Assembly: GCF_004365355.1 (NCBI RefSeq) | Contig: NZ_SODP01000003.1 | Coordinates: 1,116,001 to 1,180,000, forward strand | Origin: Kribbella pratensis | GTDB taxonomy: Bacteria > Actinomycetota > Actinomycetes > Propionibacteriales > Kribbellaceae | DNA: 64,000 bases | Reading direction: 5' to 3' | Part shown: in pieces, positions 7,369 to 61,830 of the stretch | Layout: every line of letters begins with the position of its first letter | How positions within the stretch are numbered: position 1 is the first letter of the stretch | The notes under the pieces: model-generated | The model's input: the letters and a program-made list of their open reading frames with translations, nothing else | The model's database searches: none | Told to the model about the DNA's origin: nothing | Program-made: the position numbers and the translations under genes

Positions 7369-9051
7369 TCACTGGCTGCCGGCGGGCTTCAGGTTGAGGA
7401 TGATCTGCAGAGCGTTCTGCTGGGTCGGCTGCGCCGGCCCGTACTGGTTCTGCTCGTCGGGCCAGCCGACCCAGTTCTTCGTGCTGTAGAGACCGCCGAC
7501 GTTGGACGCCGAGGTGGGGATGATCGGCATCTGCTCGACCATGATCTTCTGCAGCGTGTTCAGCGCGGTGGTCCGGGTCGCGTCGTCCGCGGCGTTGGCG
7601 TACTGGTCCAGCGCCTTGGTCGCCTCCGGGCTGTTGAACCGGCCGTAGTTGCCGCTCACGCCGCCCTTGCCGACCGGCTTCAGGATCTTGCCGTCCATGA
7701 TGTTCTGGTAGATGTCGAACGGCGTCGCGCCGCCGTTGGTCCAGTGCATCGCGGCGTCGAAGTTGCCCTCGTCGATGTTCTTGAACCACGCGTCCTGGTT
7801 GGCCTTGTCGACCGTCGCCTTGATGCCGATCGTGGACAGGTTGTCCTTGATGATCTCCAGGTCGGTGATGTAGTCGGACCAGCCGGCCGGGTCGGTCAGC
7901 GTGATCGTCACCGGCTTGCCGGTCGGGTCCTTCAGCACGTCGCCCTCGAGCTTGAAGCCCGCGTCGGTGAGCTCCTTCTTCGCGCCGTCGACATCGACCG
8001 CGTGCTTCTTGTCCTTGTACTCCGGAGCGATGAACGAGTCACCGGCCGGTGTCGGGATCCCGGTGATCGACTCGACCTTCGGGTAGAAGTACCCGGCCTC
8101 GCCCTGGTTGAAGATGTCGTCGCGGTTGATCACCAGGTTCATCGCGCGCCGCAGGGCCGGGTTGTCGAACGGCTTCTTGGTGGTGTTGATCCACAGACCG
8201 TGGATACCGAGGTTCGCCGGGAACCAGAGCTTGTGGTTCTTCGGGTCCTTGTCCTGGTAGACGGCCTTCACGTTCGGGACGAAGACGAAGCTCCACTCCG
8301 ACGAGCCGTTGGCCAGCGCGGTGGTCTGCGCGTTGTTGTCGTTGTACGACGTGTACCGCAGCTCCTTGACCTTCGGCAGGTCCTGCCAGTACGAGTCGCG
8401 CAGCGTCAGCGTGGTGGTCTGCGGGGTGAACGACTTGACCGTGTACGGGCCGGTGCCGATCGGGTTCTTCAGCGTGTCCTGGGTCGGGTCCTTGAGCGTG
8501 GACCACTGGTGCTTCGGGACCACGAAGACAGTCAGGATCTTGTTCTGGTTGGTGAACTGCGACCGGGTGAAGGTCAGGTCCACCTTGTTGCCGGAGGCGG
8601 TGATCGTGCCGTACGGGATCGCGTCCTGGTTCAGGCCGTCGTACTTCTTCCGCAGCTCGAACGAGTACGCGACGTCGTCGGCGGTCATCGGCTGGCCGTC
8701 GGAGAACTTCACGCCGTCCCGGATGGTCAGCGAGAGCTTGGTGTAGTTGGCGTCCCACTTCCACTCGGTCGCCAGCCACGGCTTGCCCGGCTCGGTCGGC
8801 TTGATCCCGTTGATCATCACCAGCGGCTCGAAGATCATCCAGCGGTAGCCCAAGGAGGCGCCGGCGGAGGAGCCGAGGAACGGGTTGTGGTTCTCGGTCT
8901 GCGGCCCGTTCGGCATGCCGATGTTCAGTACGGTCGCGCCGCTGCTCGACCCGCTGTTCTCGGTCTTCCCGTCCCCGTTACTGCAGGCAGCCAGCGTGGC
9001 TGCCGCGAGCAGGCCCGTGAGGGCCAGCGCGACGGTACGTCGTGCTCGCAT
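7369..9051 (-). CDS. Family-5 extracellular solute-binding lipoprotein
   Basis: The 560-residue protein begins with a lipoprotein signal: basic MRARR, a hydrophobic core, and lipobox LAAC with Cys23 as lipidation site. It then has a Gly/Ser-rich linker and a long SBP_bac_5 domain, the class that binds peptides, nickel or, in several bacteria, beta-gluco-oligosaccharides. I chose the ATG at 9051 because AGGAGG is 6 bases upstream and the signal peptide begins there. It would be anchored outside the membrane and hand cargo to the downstream ABC genes. The operon also carries a GH1 glucosidase and shares an operator with a beta-glucanase gene, so cello-, laminari- or gentio-oligosaccharides are the likely ligands. 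Confidence 0.93.
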
Positions 9052-52074: not shown

Positions 52075-52111
52075 ACCGATCGGCCGACAAAGACTGACCG
52101 ATCGGCCGACA
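52075..52111. promoter_or_regulatory. Two direct operator repeats, 22-bp period
   Basis: ACCGATCGGCCGACA occurs at 52075-52089 and again at 52097-52111. Each contains the dyad CCGATCGG, and the 22-base period places both on one face of the helix. The sites lie 15 bases from the peptidase start and 74 bases from the divergent secreted-protein start, so a regulator bound here could control both. Confidence 0.65.
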
Positions 52112-52184
52112 GAATGTCCGTGCCGGTGCTGACAGCATTCCTCGGGAGACGGCCCGATCCGGGCCGGGGGGAAGGGAAACCGCA

Positions 52185-52649
52185 ATGCACCGCAAGAAGA
52201 AGATCATCATCGCCGCCGCAGCCACCCTTGTGATCGGCGCCGGCTCGGCGTTCGCCTACTGGAGCACGACCGGCTCCGGCAGCGGCTCCGCGACCACGTC
52301 CGCCGGCGCCAGCAACCTGGCGATCGCGCAGACCAGCACGATCGCGAACATGTACCCCGGCGACAGCGCGCAGACCATCAGCGGCACCGTCACGAACAAC
52401 GCGTCGAACAGCGCGTACGTCAACTCCGTCACGGTGAGCATCGCCAGTGTGACCCAGGCGTCGGGCGCCGGCGGCACCTGCGACGCCTCGGACTACACGC
52501 TGGCGAGCCCGACGATGTCCGTCGCCGCCGACGTCGCGGCGGGCGGCTCGGCGAACTTCACCGGCGCGACGATCAAGTTCAACAACAAGGCCTCCAACCA
52601 GGACGGCTGCAAGGGCGCGACGGTCAACCTGTCGTACGCCAGCAACTAG
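52185..52649 (+). CDS. Secreted protein with SipW/TasA-type signal peptide
   Basis: The 154-residue protein begins MHRKKKIIIAAAATLVIGAG and continues FAYWSTTGSGSGSATTSAG, the pattern of SipW-cognate signal peptides of TasA/camelysin-like fibre proteins. The mature part is a small beta-rich domain with Cys pairs and ends SNQDGCKGATVNLSYAS. The next protein ends almost the same way (SNQDGCKGATLKLTYSG). GGGGGAAGGG precedes the ATG. It is the first of four secreted-protein genes. No SipW peptidase gene is in the window. Confidence 0.85.
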   Translation: MHRKKKIIIAAAATLVIGAGSAFAYWSTTGSGSGSATTSAGASNLAIAQTSTIANMYPGDSAQTISGTVTNNASNSAYVNSVTVSIASVTQASGAGGTCDASDYTLASPTMSVAADVAAGGSANFTGATIKFNNKASNQDGCKGATVNLSYASN

Positions 52650-52748
52650 TTCGCCGCCGCGGTTTCCCAGGCCTGGGCGGGGCGCCCCCTCGACCCAGCG
52701 CCCCGTCCAGGCCGGGACCGCACGAACTCCGGGGGGAGTGAGCAGTAG

Positions 52749-53873
52749 ATGCGAGGCACGCGCAGCGGCCCGTTCCGGGTGATCAGGTTCCTGGTCGCCG
52801 GACTGTGTCTCCTGCTTGCCATGGCCGGTCTGTCGTACGCGGCCCAGCCGGCCAAGCCCGGCATCAGTTTGGGTGTCACCCCGGCCGGCCAGTCGGTGAC
52901 CCGAGGCCAGACAGCGACGTACACCGCCAGTGTGACGTCGACCGGCGGGTTCACCGGGGCCGTCTCGTTCGAGGCCACCGGCGGACCGGGCAGCGGGTCG
53001 GCCTCCTTCAGTCCGTCCTCGGTGACCCTGAGCTCCGGCCGTACGGCGACCACGACGCTGAGCGTGCGGACCTCGTCCACCACGCCGACCGGATCGGTCA
53101 CGCTGACCGTTCAAGGACGTGGCGCGAAGGTGAGTGCGACCGTCACTGCCGGCCTGGTCGTGAACGCTCCGATCGCCAGCTCGCTGTCGATGACCGCAAC
53201 CCCTGCGTCGATCACCCAGTCGCCCGGCGCTACTGCGGTGTTCGCCGTACAGCTGAACCGGACAAACCTTCCGGGACCTGTCACCCTGGCGGTCATCGGG
53301 GTCTTGCCTCTCGGCGCGAAGGCCACCTACACACCCGATCCGGTGACGGGGAACAGTTCGGCCCTGCAGATCACCACTCCGGCGACTGCTGCTGACGGCA
53401 ACTACTCGCTCTATCTCACCGCGATCGGCAAGGACCCGGCAGGAGTGCTGCGATTCGCGAACGTCACTGTGACGCTCGTCGTACAGCGCAACGGCAAGGA
53501 CTTCGCGATCAGCGGCAACCTGTCCGGTCAGTTGGCGCCCGGAGTCTCGCGACCTCTCGATCTGATGCTGACGAACCCGAACAAGAAACCCATCTCCGTG
53601 ACGAACCTGACCGTCGCGCTGACCTCGGTCACGCGGACGCAGTACGCCGTAGCTCACAACCTCCCGTGCGGGCCGGCCGACTACAGGATCACGCAGTACG
53701 CCGGAACGTATCCGCTGACCGTGCCCGGCGACGCGAGTGCCGCACTCTCGGGACTGCACGTACCGCAGTCGGCCTGGCCGCAAGTGGCCATGCTCAACAC
53801 CGCGTCGAACCAGGACGGCTGCAAGGGCGCGACACTCAAGCTCACGTACTCAGGCAGCGGGAGCGGATCATGA
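52749..53873 (+). CDS. Secreted Ig-like protein
   Basis: The 374-residue protein has a signal peptide (FLVAGLCLLLAMAGLSYAAQP) and two beta-sandwich modules (SLGVTPAGQSVTRGQTATYTASV, cut; SSLSMTATPASITQSPGATAVFAV, cut). A C-terminal domain like that of the preceding gene follows, ending SNQDGCKGATLKLTYSG. No catalytic motif is seen, so it is probably a surface or matrix protein. GGGGGGAG lies 11 bases before the ATG. It overlaps the next gene by four bases (ATGA). Confidence 0.82.
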   Translation: MRGTRSGPFRVIRFLVAGLCLLLAMAGLSYAAQPAKPGISLGVTPAGQSVTRGQTATYTASVTSTGGFTGAVSFEATGGPGSGSASFSPSSVTLSSGRTATTTLSVRTSSTTPTGSVTLTVQGRGAKVSATVTAGLVVNAPIASSLSMTATPASITQSPGATAVFAVQLNRTNLPGPVTLAVIGVLPLGAKATYTPDPVTGNSSALQITTPATAADGNYSLYLTAIGKDPAGVLRFANVTVTLVVQRNGKDFAISGNLSGQLAPGVSRPLDLMLTNPNKKPISVTNLTVALTSVTRTQYAVAHNLPCGPADYRITQYAGTYPLTVPGDASAALSGLHVPQSAWPQVAMLNTASNQDGCKGATLKLTYSGSGSGS

Positions 53874-54931
53874 CTCGCCGCCTGTTCCTCGTCCTCGGCG
53901 TCGTCGTCCTCGTGATGACCGGCGGCCAGGTCGCCTGGGGATTCTGGACCGGAGCCGGCACCGGCTCGGGCTCCGCATCGACCGGGACGCTGGCCCTACC
54001 GGCGCCAGTGACGGCCTCGGCCCCACCAGGTGGTCAAACAGTCAGCGTCAGCTGGACAGCTTCGGCACGGGCCACCGGCTACGTCGTGACTCGAGTGCGC
54101 ACCAGCGACGGTGTGACCGCGGCAGCGTGCAGTACGACGACTGCCACGTCCTGCGCCGACCTGAACGTCACCGACGGCACGTACCACTACCTCGTCACTG
54201 CGCTCTCCGGCAGCTGGACCGCGACTGCGTCGAGTGCGGACGTGGTCGTGCATAACGCGCGGCCGGTGGTCACCGTCAACCAGGCCACTGGGCAGGCCGA
54301 CCCGGTCGCGACGTCACCAGTCAACTTCACCGTGGTCTTCAGTGAGGCTGTGGGCGACTTCACCAGTGCGGACGTCTCCGTCGTACCGGCCACCGCGACG
54401 GTCCTGGTGTCCGGCAGTGGTACGACGTACAACGTCGCTGTCAGCGGATTGACCAGCAGCGCGGTCAGCGTCTCGATTGCGGCGGACACAGCGCATGACT
54501 CGGGCGGTGCCGGCAATACGGCGTCGACGAGCACGGACAACACGGTGACGTACGACGCGACCGCACCGACGGCCCCGGCACCCACGGTCGCAGCAGCTCT
54601 GACCTTCGGGAGCTTTGTCGGCAACACGGCGGTGACGCTGTCCGACGCGGCCACCGACGACTTCTCCGGCGTCCGCTCGGTCACCTACTACCGCTGCATC
54701 GGCTCCACCGGTAGCTGCACGGCGGCGAACTGGACTGCCCTCGGATCGTCCACCTCTGCAGGCTTCTCGCTGACGAAGAACGCCCCCTTCGCCGCCGACG
54801 GTGGCTATCGGGTCGTAGCCGTCGCAACCGATGCCGCCGGCAACGTCAGTGCACCGAGCGCGGCGACGGCCATCACCGTGGACACGACCCCACCGACCGT
54901 CAGCCGCCCAGCAGTGAACGGACACTCCTGA
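53870..54931 (+). CDS. Secreted FnIII/Ig-like protein with SipW-type signal peptide
   Basis: The 353-residue protein starts MTRRLFLVLGVVVLVMTGGQ and continues WGFWTGAGTGSGSASTGTL, again the SipW-cognate pattern. A fibronectin-III-like module (VSWTASARATGYVVTRV), an Ig-like module (PVVTVNQATGQADPVATSPVNF, cut; DVSVVPATATVLVSGSGTTY) and a module with paired Cys (YYRCIGSTGSCTAANWTALG) follow. No LPxTG or membrane anchor is present. ATGA overlap before, TGATG overlap after: fully coupled. Confidence 0.82.
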   Translation: MTRRLFLVLGVVVLVMTGGQVAWGFWTGAGTGSGSASTGTLALPAPVTASAPPGGQTVSVSWTASARATGYVVTRVRTSDGVTAAACSTTTATSCADLNVTDGTYHYLVTALSGSWTATASSADVVVHNARPVVTVNQATGQADPVATSPVNFTVVFSEAVGDFTSADVSVVPATATVLVSGSGTTYNVAVSGLTSSAVSVSIAADTAHDSGGAGNTASTSTDNTVTYDATAPTAPAPTVAAALTFGSFVGNTAVTLSDAATDDFSGVRSVTYYRCIGSTGSCTAANWTALGSSTSAGFSLTKNAPFAADGGYRVVAVATDAAGNVSAPSAATAITVDTTPPTVSRPAVNGHS

Positions 54932-56016
54932 TGAGCCTCAAACGCATCTGCCTGGCCGCACTCCTTGCGTTGCTCGTCGGCGCCGGCATCCTCACCGGCC
55001 CGGCGGCCTTCGCAGCCAACGGAGTAAGCAACGTCACCTTCAACGGCTCGTCCCTGGTGGGTGGAGCGACAGCCGCCTGGACGATCGGATTCACCACCAG
55101 CAACGGCGCCGGTGGCGCGCTCGGCCCCGGCAGCACGATCGTGGTCACCTTCAACACCAGCTTCGCTGAGCCGTCCAGCCCGGCCGTGACCCTCGGCACG
55201 GGGTTCACCGGGTGTACGGCGACGGCGTCAACCGCAAGCAGCACCGACGTTGTCACGGTGACCCTCGCCGGCTCGAGCTGCGCACTTCCGAAGAGCACCG
55301 CCGCCGCTCTCACGATCGCCGGGATCACCAACGCGCCGGTCGGCACGTATCCGGCGAGCACCTTCACGGTGTCCACGTCCAGCGACACCAACGTGGTGTC
55401 GTCGGGCGCCGCGATCACCCTGACAGCAGGCGCGGCAAGCAAGCTCGCCTTCGTCCAGGGACCGGCCAGTGGATTCGCAGGTACGGCGTTGTCGCCGGCG
55501 ATCACCGTCCAGGTCCAGGACCAATCCGGCAACCCGGTCAGTGGATCCGGTCGGACCGTCACGCTGACGCCTTCGGCGGGAGTGATCGATGCCGGTGCCT
55601 CCGCGAGCACCGACAGCAGTGGACGAGCCACGTTCAGCGGCGTGACGATCAACACGGCCGCACTCGGCCTGACCCTCACCGCATCCGCCTCCGGTCTCAC
55701 CACGACCGGCCCGTCGGCGGTGTTCAACGTCACCGTCGCGGTCAGCAGCGGCGCGACGCTCACCGACACCACGTCCGACGACTCCGGCTCCGGAGTGAAG
55801 TCAGTGGCGTACTTCTTCTGTGCCGGATACTCCGGGGCCTGCACGAGCGCCAACTGGACGGCTATCGGTTCGTCGACCAACGCAGCCACCAACTACCTGG
55901 TCAGCTGGACGTCGCAACCGGCCGGCGGCGCATACCGGGTCGTTGCCGTCAGCACCGACAACGTGACGAACGCGAGCCAGCCGAGTAGCAGCACCCCGGT
56001 CACGGTCGGAAGTTAG
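54931..56016 (+). CDS. Secreted Ig-like protein
   Basis: The 361-residue protein has a signal peptide (LAALLALLVGAGILTGPAAFAAN), a large beta-rich N-terminal domain and an invasin/Big-1-like module (AITVQVQDQSGNPVSGSGRTVTL, cut). The C-terminal module YFFCAGYSGACTSANWTAIG matches that of the preceding protein. The start overlaps the preceding stop by one base. It is the last gene of the operon and overlaps the convergent phosphotransferase by four bases. A role in the cell-surface matrix or adhesion is inferred. Confidence 0.82.
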   Translation: MSLKRICLAALLALLVGAGILTGPAAFAANGVSNVTFNGSSLVGGATAAWTIGFTTSNGAGGALGPGSTIVVTFNTSFAEPSSPAVTLGTGFTGCTATASTASSTDVVTVTLAGSSCALPKSTAAALTIAGITNAPVGTYPASTFTVSTSSDTNVVSSGAAITLTAGAASKLAFVQGPASGFAGTALSPAITVQVQDQSGNPVSGSGRTVTLTPSAGVIDAGASASTDSSGRATFSGVTINTAALGLTLTASASGLTTTGPSAVFNVTVAVSSGATLTDTTSDDSGSGVKSVAYFFCAGYSGACTSANWTAIGSSTNAATNYLVSWTSQPAGGAYRVVAVSTDNVTNASQPSSSTPVTVGS

Positions 56017-58433: not shown

Positions 58434-60716
58434 TCACCGACGGGACGACGTCGGCGGGATCTGGACGCTGTCGGTGTCCTCGCGGCCGCCGAGCCGGGCG
58501 TGCACGGTGATCGCGTTGTTGGACCCGGTGCCGGGCAGCCAGGCGTTCCACTCCGAGTTGAGCGGCTTCTTGTAGTTGTTCGTCCAGCAGGTCGCGCGCC
58601 GGATGTCGCTGGTCCGGTCACACGTCCACCCGGGACTCCAGACCGGCAGCAGCGTGAGGTTCTTGCCCCAGGAGATGTCCAGGGTCACCTTCCGCCCGGT
58701 GGCGCCGTTGACCTGCAGGAACCGGTTGTAGACGAACGGGTTCGGGTCGGTCTGCGGCGTCGGGGTCAGGATCTGCAGCAGCGACTCGTCCTGCTGGACC
58801 TCCGGCAGGACCTCCGAGTCGGTGTCGCTGACCAGGTCCGCGGTCGCGGCGACGGTGAATGTCCGCGCCGCGGTCGACGAGTCATCGGGTACGTCGAAGT
58901 TCGCCGGCAGCGCTGCGGGACGGTCCGGGTTCAGCGCCGTACACGTCCTGGTCGACGACGAGCACTTCCAGCCGGCCGGGTTGGCGGCGATCGGCCACTC
59001 GAGCTCGGAGCCGTAGCTGAGCTTCAGTGTCACCTTGGTCCGATCGGTGCGTGGGGCAACGGTGATGATCCGGTGGTGGACGTCGGGGTCCGCCTTGCCG
59101 TCGAGGATCTTCAGCAGGTTCTCGTCGGTGCTCGGCTGGGCCTGCACGGTCGCCGAGTCGTCGTCGTACAGCCGGCCGGTCTTGGCCGAGACGGTGAACG
59201 TACGGTCCGGGGCCGTGCCACCGGTCGGGGCGTCGAAGGTCACCGGCAGCGGCGACGGCGCGGCCGGGTTGCTCGCCGTACACGTGCCGGCCGTCGGGTT
59301 GCACGTCCAGCCCGGCGGGTTGCCGGTGAGGGGCCATTCCAGCTCGGCGCCGTACTTCAGGCCGATCACCACCGGGTTCGCGTTCGCGGCCGGGGTCTTG
59401 ATCGTGATCACGAACCGGATCCCGTTGGCAGCGCCCGCGGTCTCCCGGTAGGCCGGGCTACCGCCGCCGCCCGGCATGCTGATCGTCACCAGCGCCTCGT
59501 CGAGCACCGGAGTGGTCGGCGTCGGCTTTGTGGGCGTCGGAGTCGGCGTCGTCGGGACCGGTGTGGTCGCCGTCGGCGTGGGAGTCTGGCCGGGTTGCGT
59601 CGGGGCCGTCGTGGGCGCGGTCGTCGGGGCAGTGGTCGGAGCCGTTGTGGGGTTGGACGCCGGCGGCTTGGTCGACGGGGGTTTCACCGACGGCGGCACG
59701 ACCGGCGGGACCGTCGGCTTCTGTCCAGGTGGCTGTGTCGGCTGCTGTGTCGGCGGCTTCTCGATCGCCGCCTGAGGCTTGTCGTTGGCGGTCAGTGCCA
59801 TTGCGGCGAGTACGGCGGCGATCGCGACGACCACCACAGCACCGGCGCCGACTGCGGTGCGGGTGCTGTTCTCGGTGGCCTTCTTCCAACCGGTGACGAA
59901 GAAGCCGACCAGTCCGACCTTCGCACCGGACGTGGCGGCCAGGTAGCCGAGGCCCGCGGTGCCCAGCAGGGCCGGGGCGAGCAGCGCCGGCAGAGCGCTG
60001 TTGACCTCGACGAGCTCGAGGTACACGGCGGTGCACTTCGCGCAGTCGTCCAGGTGCTCGCGGACGTTCCGGTTCTCGCGCTTGGTCAGGCCGCCACGGA
60101 CGTAGGCGCCGAGGCGCTCGGTCGTCCAACGGCAACGGTCGCCGGCGACGTCGGCGAGGTGCTGCTGCAGGTACGCCTGGCGTAGACCTTCACGGGCCCG
60201 ATAGGCCAGCGCGGACACGCCATTCGCGGTCAGGCCGAGCAGGGGAGCGATGGCGGCCGGCTTCTCGCCCTCGACCTCGGTGTGCCAGAGAACGGCCTGC
60301 CAGCGCTCGGGCAGGCTGGCGAACGCCTTCGCCGCCGCGCCGCTCTCGAAGCCGGTGACAGTCGGGTCGTCGAACGTCTCCGGCTCACGCTCGTACGACG
60401 CGATGTCGTCGGTGGACTGCACCTTCTTGCCAGAGCGGATCCGGTCGACGTGCACCCGCCGTACCGTCGTCAGGAGGTAGGCGCGGAACGAGATGTCCGG
60501 TCCGCCGCCGGCCCGGAGCGCGTCGAGGACCTTGGCGAAGGCGTCGCTGGCCAGGTCGTCGGCGTCGTTGGCCGGGACGAGCTGCCGGGCCATCCGCTCG
60601 GCGGCGTGGTGATGCCGCGCGTAGAGCTCGCCGTACGCCTCCAGGTCGCCGTTGCGGACGCGCGCGATCAGTTCGGCGTCGCCGGCAACGTCCGGCCGGC
60701 CTGGCGGCGTGTCCAT
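58434..60716 (-). CDS. Membrane-tethered ECF sigma factor fused to zinc-finger and extracellular domains
   Basis: The 760-residue protein has sigma-2 (about 20-95) and sigma-4 (about 130-185; AIAPLLGLTANGVSALAYRA). An anti-sigma-like zinc finger follows, HLDDCAKC (His221, Cys225, Cys228), with a hydrophobic stretch at 242-262 and a membrane helix at 288-308. A Pro/Thr-rich stalk (about 318-425) then leads to three extracellular beta modules with paired Cys (LEWPLTGNPPGWTCNPTAGTC; LEWPIAANPAGWKCSSSTRTC, each cut). Sigma, anti-sigma and sensor thus lie in one chain. GGGGAG precedes the ATG at 60716; an earlier in-frame codon lacks one. Release of the sigma part would need proteolysis or a shape change. 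Confidence 0.93.
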   Translation of the reverse strand: MDTPPGRPDVAGDAELIARVRNGDLEAYGELYARHHHAAERMARQLVPANDADDLASDAFAKVLDALRAGGGPDISFRAYLLTTVRRVHVDRIRSGKKVQSTDDIASYEREPETFDDPTVTGFESGAAAKAFASLPERWQAVLWHTEVEGEKPAAIAPLLGLTANGVSALAYRAREGLRQAYLQQHLADVAGDRCRWTTERLGAYVRGGLTKRENRNVREHLDDCAKCTAVYLELVEVNSALPALLAPALLGTAGLGYLAATSGAKVGLVGFFVTGWKKATENSTRTAVGAGAVVVVAIAAVLAAMALTANDKPQAAIEKPPTQQPTQPPGQKPTVPPVVPPSVKPPSTKPPASNPTTAPTTAPTTAPTTAPTQPGQTPTPTATTPVPTTPTPTPTKPTPTTPVLDEALVTISMPGGGGSPAYRETAGAANGIRFVITIKTPAANANPVVIGLKYGAELEWPLTGNPPGWTCNPTAGTCTASNPAAPSPLPVTFDAPTGGTAPDRTFTVSAKTGRLYDDDSATVQAQPSTDENLLKILDGKADPDVHHRIITVAPRTDRTKVTLKLSYGSELEWPIAANPAGWKCSSSTRTCTALNPDRPAALPANFDVPDDSSTAARTFTVAATADLVSDTDSEVLPEVQQDESLLQILTPTPQTDPNPFVYNRFLQVNGATGRKVTLDISWGKNLTLLPVWSPGWTCDRTSDIRRATCWTNNYKKPLNSEWNAWLPGTGSNNAITVHARLGGREDTDSVQIPPTSSRR

Positions 60717-60746: not shown

Positions 60747-60778
60747 CGGCAACGTGACGGTCCGTCACTTTGTTGCCG
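60747..60778 (-). promoter_or_regulatory. Perfect palindrome upstream of the sigma-fusion gene
   Basis: GTGACGGTCCGTCAC (60754-60768) is a 7-1-7 palindrome. The flanks extend the symmetry with CGGCAAC (60747-60753) and GTTGCCG (60772-60778), giving 14-base arms with a three-base offset. It begins 31 bases before the sigma start. It may be an operator or a 5' leader hairpin. Confidence 0.55.
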
Positions 60779-60838
60779 GAGACAAGGCTCCCACGAGAGA
60801 CGGGCTGTGCGCACTATTTGGTGCACCCTTCCTGACGC

Positions 60839-60996: not shown

Positions 60997-61830
60997 ATGT
61001 CGCTGTTCGCGGATCTCCGCAGACGCTTCGACCTGCGTCCGGCCAAGTCCCTGAACCTGGCGGGGTCGCCCGCCCGGACCCGGCCGGAAGCGTCGTCCAA
61101 AGACACGGGGGACTTCACGGGGGTGGAACCGTGCGGAAGGAGGGAGCCGCACGGCACAGACGGCACCGACCACAGCGCCTACCTCGCAATCGCGGAGGCG
61201 CTGACGGACGGAGCCGATGTCGTGCCTGCATCGGACGAGGTCGGACGTCAGTTGGCGACCGACGGAGTCTCGCTGGTGGAGGCACTTGATGGGCTGAGTG
61301 CGTTGTACCGCTCGATCGCCGGGGGCGAGCCGGCTTTCGATGCGGTACGCGCACTCAGTTCCAGCTGGGCCGAGGCCTCGCTGGTCTACCTGCACGCGCT
61401 GTCCTGCGAGGACCCGCTGACCGGGCTGTCCAGCCTGGCGCACCTGCGGTCCCGCCTGGGAGAGCTTTACCGAGAGGCGGAGTTCCGTGGAACTTCCGTA
61501 CCGCAAACCCATGCACTGGTGGTTGTCGAGCCGCTCAATCCCGCGGGTACGTCGCCGTTCGACCGCGAGCTCCGGCTCGTCGACGTCGCGGAATGCCTGC
61601 GGATCGTCTTCTGCGGCGGTGACGTACTGGGTCGCGTCGGCTCACGCCGCGCGGCGGCGCTCGTCGGCCGCGAGCCGAACCTGCCGGAGCAGGTCGCGAC
61701 GGTACGAGCCCTGATCACCCAGTGGCGGCTGGACACCGACGTACCCCAGCTCGCCCGGATCTGGATCGAAGGCCTGCCCAGCACCGACGAGATGGCCGGG
61801 AGGTTGCTCGACGAGCTCGCCAGACCCTGA
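60997..61830 (+). CDS. Protein with degenerate GGDEF-like domain
   Basis: The 277-residue protein has a variable, charged first 60 residues, a helical region, then CEDPLTGLSSLAHLRSRLGE, which matches the DPLTGLxNR start of GGDEF domains. The GGDEF signature itself is missing; the matching place reads VFCGGDVLGRVG. It is therefore unlikely to make c-di-GMP and could be a sensor or binding protein. GAGGAGGG lies just before the ATG; the frame is open further upstream without start signals. It is divergent from the sigma-fusion gene. Confidence 0.75.
   Translation: MSLFADLRRRFDLRPAKSLNLAGSPARTRPEASSKDTGDFTGVEPCGRREPHGTDGTDHSAYLAIAEALTDGADVVPASDEVGRQLATDGVSLVEALDGLSALYRSIAGGEPAFDAVRALSSSWAEASLVYLHALSCEDPLTGLSSLAHLRSRLGELYREAEFRGTSVPQTHALVVVEPLNPAGTSPFDRELRLVDVAECLRIVFCGGDVLGRVGSRRAAALVGREPNLPEQVATVRALITQWRLDTDVPQLARIWIEGLPSTDEMAGRLLDELARP

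Follow-up and report, generated by a model that had tools for sequence, protein, structure and literature searches.

A genus-wide Kribbella protein with sigma, zinc-finger anti-sigma-like, membrane and three predicted Ig-like outside parts in one chain

Background

Can one protein carry a signal from outside the cell to a promoter? The question is raised by an open frame in a stretch of 64,000 nucleotides from Kribbella pratensis (hereafter the window, meaning the whole stretch analysed), for which an initial annotation had proposed a single 760-residue chain with sigma, anti-sigma-like, membrane and outside parts, leaving the strand unnamed. We find such a chain on the minus strand, with an ATG at 60716 and a stop at 58434-58436.

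The same annotation held that sigma/zinc-finger fusions are known among ECF groups, and the literature agrees: fused ECF sigma/anti-sigma proteins with the same order of parts, together with a proposed proteolytic release of the sigma factor, appear in PMC8999054 and PMC5826349. The fused sigma/anti-sigma/membrane architecture is already published and the Kribbella protein is a genus-wide member of it; what is new here is the outside part of three predicted Ig-like modules, which goes beyond the published description of the ECF52 group. Our literature searches, which did not take in the papers on ECF reclassification, turned up no description of the Kribbella protein.

The features referred to throughout are as follows.

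58434..60716, minus strand: whole gene, 760 aa (sigma / zinc-finger anti-sigma-like / membrane / stalk / three predicted Ig-like modules)
60426..60626, minus strand: sigma-70 region 2, residues 31-97 (Pfam PF04542 Sigma70_r2, E 7e-10, above cut-off)
60189..60332, minus strand: sigma-70 region 4, residues 129-176 (Pfam PF08281 Sigma70_r4_2, E 2e-4, below cut-off)
60033..60134, minus strand: zinc-finger anti-sigma domain, C195-x25-H221-xxx-C225-xx-C228 (Pfam PF13490)
59940..59996, minus strand: conserved hydrophobic stretch, residues 241-259 (hydropathy and alignment)
59799..59855, minus strand: putative membrane helix, residues 288-306 (Kyte-Doolittle maximum 2.58)
59505..59759, minus strand: Pro/Thr-rich stalk, residues about 320-404 (sequence composition)
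59145..59498, minus strand: predicted Ig-like module 1, residues 407-524, Cys 472/479 (AlphaFold, hhalign, Cys conservation)
58797..59129, minus strand: predicted Ig-like module 2, residues 530-640, Cys 585/592 (AlphaFold, hhalign, Cys conservation)
58449..58784, minus strand: predicted Ig-like module 3, residues 645-756, Cys 699/710 (AlphaFold, hhalign, Cys conservation)
60764..60792, minus strand: candidate promoter GGGAGCCTTG...CGGCAAC...GTGAC, conserved in Kribbella, 76 nt upstream of the ATG

Results

The gene and its neighbourhood

An in-frame TTG also lies 12 codons upstream of the ATG. The ATG is preferred because of the starts of the orthologs in the alignment, where METP or MDTP begins 19 upstream-aligned rows (L016-L018, whose start differs, were left out of the upstream alignment) and MEAP, MEPV or MEEV begins three further orthologs. 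That the 760-aa frame is not a chance ORF follows from dN/dS values of 0.02-0.45 across ten segments from residue 25 onwards and from its presence, as one copy each and at 92-99% identity, in all 12 other Kribbella genomes examined (13 of 13 at 92-100% when K. pratensis itself is counted, within a set of 20 relatives' genomes).

Downstream, on the same strand, stands a class-II tRNA synthetase gene. The upstream neighbour, at 60997-61830 and 280 bp away, is divergent on the plus strand; its product matched no Pfam family and by eye resembles a degenerate GGDEF protein, and in 19 aligned rows the region upstream of the fused gene retains its start. Further off in the window, plus-strand positions 52098-56016 hold a consecutive run of repeat-rich secreted proteins, two with starts that we take to be reminiscent of camelysin/TasA-type proteins. 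At two other loci (L026 and L031) a SRAP gene precedes the fused gene and DoxX-like and aroA-like genes follow it, a neighbourhood common to Kribbella and Nocardioides despite their differing outside parts; SRAP in both loci and DoxX in L031 were assigned through Pfam and the remainder by eye.

Conservation within Kribbella

Among the best 80 of 102 relatives the closest are from Kribbella, with 97% to K. rubisoli. Across 21 aligned Kribbella-type sequences (L022, a gene cut by a contig end, was left out of this alignment and of the dN/dS analysis) identity to the window protein is 98-100% in sigma-4 and 96-100% in the zinc finger, falling to 55-97% in the modules. The dN/dS values over all pairs run from 0.018 in sigma-4 (residues 125-185), the lowest, through 0.026 in the zinc finger, 0.085 in sigma-2, 0.13 in the membrane helix and 0.35 in the stalk to 0.43-0.45 in the modules, so that selection acts on every segment of the protein measured. 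None of the nine cysteines in the zinc finger and modules is lost in any of the 21 sequences. As it is retained in all 12 further Kribbella genomes examined, the fused protein probably belongs to the core physiology of the genus.

We had suspected that outside parts were swapped within Kribbella, as at several loci the tblastn matches did not extend past about residue 320; full alignment recovered the same three modules and the idea was rejected. A record titled Streptomyces sp. SID13031 (L027) encodes a Kribbella-type protein, 90% identical over residues 1-318, and nests among the Kribbella rows in the inside-part tree; the genome is probably misnamed.

The inside part: sigma and zinc-finger domains

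The sigma-2/4 regions and HxxxCxxC zinc finger of the initial annotation are both recovered by profile search (PF04542, PF13490 and NCBIfam TIGR02937). Residues 27-181 match the sigma70-ECF model TIGR02937 with 56.1 bits against a cut-off of 42.9, and zf-HC2 (PF13490) covers residues 195-228 with E 1e-9, above the Pfam cut-off. The Hx3Cx2C pattern of zinc-binding class-I anti-sigma domains is present as H221, C225 and C228, accompanied by C195, and almost no linker separates sigma-4 from the zinc-finger domain. In a wider set of 82 sequences, made up of the window protein, 77 loci (from the best 80 of 102 relatives) and four SCO4117-type proteins, 79 contain C-x22-29-HxxxCxxC; the three that do not are two sigma-only proteins from Phytohabitans and one short, apparently frameshifted copy.

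The hydrophobic stretch after the zinc finger is also conserved. A single-sequence fold of the whole 760-aa protein was poor (pLDDT 41.8), which leaves the inside part without a reliable model and is too poor to be read for contacts between sigma and clamp. Class-I anti-sigma factors bind sigma-4 through helix 1 and sigma-2 through helix 4 (PMC7406223). The near-invariant sigma-4, zinc finger and hydrophobic stretch would fit a class-I clamp acting on its own chain, and the strongest constraint falls on sigma-4 and the zinc finger, as expected if these two touch each other.

Membrane topology

A single membrane helix had been proposed, and the hydropathy scales divide over where it lies. By Kyte-Doolittle, residues 288-306 form a strong membrane segment and 241-259 a weaker one, in keeping with the proposal, whereas the Wimley-White octanol scale reverses the order (3.0 for 241-259 vs 1.5 for 288-306) and makes 241-259 the sole peak in two of ten sequences tried. 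Lys/Arg residues lie on the N-terminal side of 288-306. In the ricin-type relatives L074-L076 the equivalent of 241-259 carries charged residues and a single membrane helix follows further on; for this reason, and because relatives have lectin domains beyond it, we favour reading 241-259 as cytoplasmic anti-sigma helix 4, with a membrane segment as the alternative. The protein is thus likely, from its sequence, to have one membrane helix, and cysteine pairs placed in hairpins of modelled Ig-like sandwiches fit modules that stand outside the cell.

The stalk and three outside modules

The Pro/Thr stalk and three cysteine-containing modules described at the outset hold up, the cysteine pairs being present in 21 of 21 Kribbella-type sequences. 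The modules are related to one another (hhalign probability 99.9, 97.8 and 92.3), and their paired cysteines are spaced by seven residues in modules 1 and 2 and by eleven in module 3. An AlphaFold model of the outside part, built from 21 sequences (pLDDT 84, pTM 0.66), contains three similar all-beta modules in which the paired cysteines sit in adjacent strands of a hairpin; the modules are predicted to be Ig-like beta-sandwiches.

No Pfam family, carbohydrate-binding families included, scores above cut-off in any of the 21 Kribbella-type outside parts. The nearest match, below cut-off, is NPCBM_assoc/NEW3 (4 of 21, best E 0.028), and PilA4 is likewise below cut-off in 3 of 21 (best E 0.009); a search of PDB sequences with the outside-part profile returned titin alone, at E 0.87. 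Foldseek and VIA-align on the model matched Ig-like and adhesin domains, the best multi-module structural match being Antigen I/II C123 (Z 11.6, rmsd 10.3 over 306 residues) and single modules matching Cnm (Z 8.5, rmsd 3.1 over 107 residues) and FnBPA (Z 8.5, rmsd 3.7 over 107 residues). Integrins, fibronectin and antibodies match too, with whole-model TM-scores of 0.13-0.30 among the matches listed. These tied matches to common folds indicate an Ig-like module and not its ligand; a fold of the predicted kind could serve many ligands. A glycan ligand for the modules, for which the initial annotation had suggested glycan arrays, finds no backing here, with no carbohydrate-binding family recognised in 21 outside parts and an Ig-like fold predicted.

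Relatives and the variety of their outside parts

A scan of genome contigs retained 77 loci from the best 80 of 102 relatives, all of them actinobacterial by record title. Clustering of 71 outside parts (7 of 78 sequences, cut or shorter than 400 aa, were set aside) gave seven clusters and five singles. Among 49 non-Kribbella outside parts (7 of the 56 loci being set aside for the same reasons) Pfam recognises ricin-B lectin in 14, DUF642 in five, Big_9 and CBM_4_9 in two each and DUF3344 in one. The kind of outside part tracks an inside-part tree of 77 rows, which excludes L071, with 11 changes where the minimum possible is seven; shuffling the kinds gave a mean of 46.5 changes, and none of 200 shuffles fell as low as 11. 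What these sequences share is a conserved inside part; their outside parts are specific to lineages, exchanged between them and not shuffled freely.

A genome from the same order (G018) carries three paralogs. Two of them have a stalk and a single GWxC-type module, and the third (L111) ends after sigma and zinc finger, without a membrane helix. Compared with the single modules of L110 and L112, the Kribbella modules score 89.3 and 68.1 in hhalign as a combined profile and 1.3-92.2 in single comparisons, and five shuffles of L112 score 0.1-0.3. This kinship is suggestive, and on its strength one ancestral module could plausibly have been triplicated to give the Kribbella outside part. No kinship was found with the outside domains of Nocardioides (three sequences, hhalign probability up to 1.6) or Micromonosporales (21 sequences, up to 20.4).

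Two Phytohabitans loci (L063 and L065, about 8001-8534) encode nothing but the sigma part; zinc finger, membrane helix and outside part are all missing. GtrA-type genes come after the sigma-only gene, as they do in fused relatives such as L033; a split sigma/anti-sigma pair was considered and rejected, as these next genes are GtrA-type and include no anti-sigma gene, and the sigma-only proteins probably reflect loss of the regulatory half. Streptomyces albospinus (L071, about 8001-8700) has a second copy that is short and apparently frameshifted.

A candidate promoter

The sequence TGGGAGCCTTGTCTCCGGCAACAAAGTGAC stands upstream of the ATG at 60716. The pattern GGGARC...GTGAC, which resembles ECF -35 elements, is present at 18 of the 21 Kribbella-type loci, 60-83 nt ahead of the matched start, and the 56 other loci lack it. 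The 21-base core GGGARCCTTG-N4-CGGCAAC has one exact copy in its own genome, that upstream of the gene itself; with up to two mismatches there are 19 matches against 5 for a reversed control, and the sole one-mismatch copy appears to fall within a coding frame. A regulon defined by this motif was accordingly rejected, the sole exact match being the gene's own upstream region, and the motif search of this genome found none. Autoregulation through the candidate promoter is possible, and the conservation of GGGARC...GTGAC could reflect any kind of genus-level element.

Comparison with known systems

The nearest described proteins are those of ECF52, a group confined to Actinobacteria, whose Streptomyces coelicolor member SCO4117 has the same order of ECF sigma, zinc finger, membrane helix, Pro-rich segment and outside domain (PMC5826349). 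The Kribbella protein has N-terminal sigma-2 and sigma-4, a zinc finger after sigma-4 and a Pro-rich extension, and hydropathy also gives it the 'one or more membrane helices' of the group, their number not being settled. SCO4117 has one C-terminal carbohydrate-binding module (smart00776; PMC5826349) in place of the three predicted Ig-like modules, and Pfam recognises no such C-terminal domain in any of the 21 Kribbella-type outside parts. Since this domain of the group description was sought and not found, we do not file the protein as ECF52, a distinction drawn from the group description and not from group models; as far as the sequence tells, it would work like an ECF52 protein.

Four Streptomyces genomes hold one protein each with the SCO4117 make-up of sigma, zinc finger, membrane segment, Pro-rich part and NPCBM. 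In the sigma/zinc-finger part, over some 265-272 aligned positions, their identity to the window protein is 44-45%. A TetR-type gene adjoins the SCO4117-type gene in L104, as atrA does SCO4117; the neighbour chosen in L107 matched nothing, making one of two neighbours tested TetR-type. In a 40-row tree, rooted on three ordinary ECF sigmas of the K. pratensis genome, the SCO4117-type and ricin-type rows group together (99/99), as do those of Kribbella and Nocardioides (92/96, not starred), with a weak root branch to the outgroup (66/60).

ECF53 and ECF48 resemble the Kribbella protein in having a fused zinc-finger anti-sigma part and membrane helices, and proteolytic activation is expected for ECF48, ECF52 and ECF53 (PMC8999054). 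Glycosyl hydrolase or carbohydrate-binding domains are predicted in some members of ECF52 and ECF53 (PMC10766802); neither was found by Pfam in the Kribbella protein. IutY of Pseudomonas putida (ECF243) likewise joins sigma and membrane anti-sigma in one chain, and its release by Prc and RseP has been shown (PMC8999054). Unlike our reading of the Kribbella protein, IutY pairs with an outer-membrane siderophore receptor, and no FecR-type domain is among the four Pfam matches of the Kribbella protein at E up to 1.

RsgI and SigI of Clostridium thermocellum are two separate proteins and not of the ECF/zinc-finger kind, in contrast to the single Kribbella chain. The outside parts of RsgI are exchangeable carbohydrate-binding modules. 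RsgI membrane anti-sigmas differ in the substrate that they sense, and RseP followed by ClpXP cleaves them (PMC12203970).

Discussion

Domain order, conservation, predicted fold and kinship with SCO4117-type proteins are supported by the computations above. Beyond them we infer how the chain is oriented in the membrane, that it is inhibited in cis and released by proteolysis, and what its signal, regulon and autoregulation would be, in a model that we consider moderately likely, namely one-protein transmembrane signalling in which a sigma factor clamped by a zinc finger at the membrane is released by proteolysis on an outside signal. Inside the cell, the class-I zinc-finger anti-sigma domain directly after the ECF sigma would block access to RNA polymerase, and the chain would cross the membrane into the Pro/Thr stalk and three tandem Ig-like modules. 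Ligand binding, wall contact or damage would alter the modules and so expose the stalk/membrane region to proteases, the sigma part would leave the membrane with its anti-sigma part removed or disabled, and the freed sigma would turn to its own regulon, in which its own gene probably figures. A wall or polysaccharide signal is possible by analogy, given the lectin- and CBM-type outside parts of relatives.

The initial annotation suggested that a signal could pass straight to a tethered sigma factor. The one-chain layout is supported; 'straight' overlooks the zinc finger directly after sigma-4, since a cut at the membrane alone would leave the presumed inhibitor in place. Because the clamp abuts sigma-4, such a cut would free sigma and clamp together, and further trimming or unfolding of the clamp would be required. 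A Peptidase_M50 (site-2-protease) match in the K. pratensis genome (E 5e-43) is permissive only, since the family is also found in 14 of 14 control genomes. Truncating SCO4117 to its sigma part increased the protein's own transcript by just 1.3-fold, in a strain that remained delayed (PMC5826349), which by analogy tells somewhat against release as the whole story.

The abutting domains also lend themselves to an account, unlikely in our view, in which the chain keeps its sigma: a conformational change transmitted across the membrane, or loss of zinc or oxidation in the zinc finger, would open the clamp so that the tethered sigma works in place. The complete C-H-C-C set of 79 of the 82 sequences and three structured modules that could pass on a mechanical or ligand state favour it, and conformational inactivation of the zinc finger forms part of a proposal by other authors cited in PMC5826349; yet in mixed class-I groups the zinc motif may be structural and not sensory (PMC7406223), and IutY, the only fused sigma with an experimental mechanism named in PMC8999054, is released by proteolysis. 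The outside part might instead be mainly an adhesin-like wall anchor that reports wall contact or integrity and not a soluble ligand. Bacterial adhesins are its best structural matches (Antigen I/II C123 for several modules, Cnm for one), the stalk is long, and no ligand-binding family was recognised in any of the 21 outside parts, but Ig-like matches are unspecific, extending to integrins, fibronectin and antibodies, and relatives bear lectin-type domains instead, so that we think this improbable.

Two further readings bear on the inside part and the topology. If 241-259 and 288-306 both crossed the membrane as a hairpin, the modules would be cytoplasmic; the octanol scale peaks at both stretches, the first higher, but the charged equivalent stretch and single later helix of L074-L076, the cysteine pairs conserved in 21 of 21 sequences and the lectin-type domains of relatives make this very unlikely. 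That the sigma part no longer works as a sigma, or that the anti-sigma part targets another sigma, could be read from the below-cut-off match to Sigma70_r4_2. It is hardly credible beside the low dN/dS of sigma-4 and sigma-2, a full ECF model above cut-off, and two Phytohabitans species that keep the sigma part alone, apparently at the same locus.

A wider reading, speculative and in its entirety rather doubtful, would see a shared actinobacterial chassis of sigma, clamp, helix and stalk bearing each lineage's own outside part, which in Kribbella would come from the triplication of one Ig-like module that relatives within the order retain; the clamp being welded directly to sigma-4, the working form would be a trimmed sigma-clamp chain or a still-tethered sigma. 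We know of no established example of a sigma factor that works while tethered to the membrane.

Conclusions

If the proposed mechanism holds, one gene would constitute a complete pathway from outside the cell to the promoter, whose input (the modules), cutting (stalk and membrane) and output (the regulon) could be dissected by swapping parts. Such swaps occur naturally in the family, where outside parts of at least seven kinds are joined to a conserved inside part, and they would make it directly testable how a fused anti-sigma factor releases its sigma.
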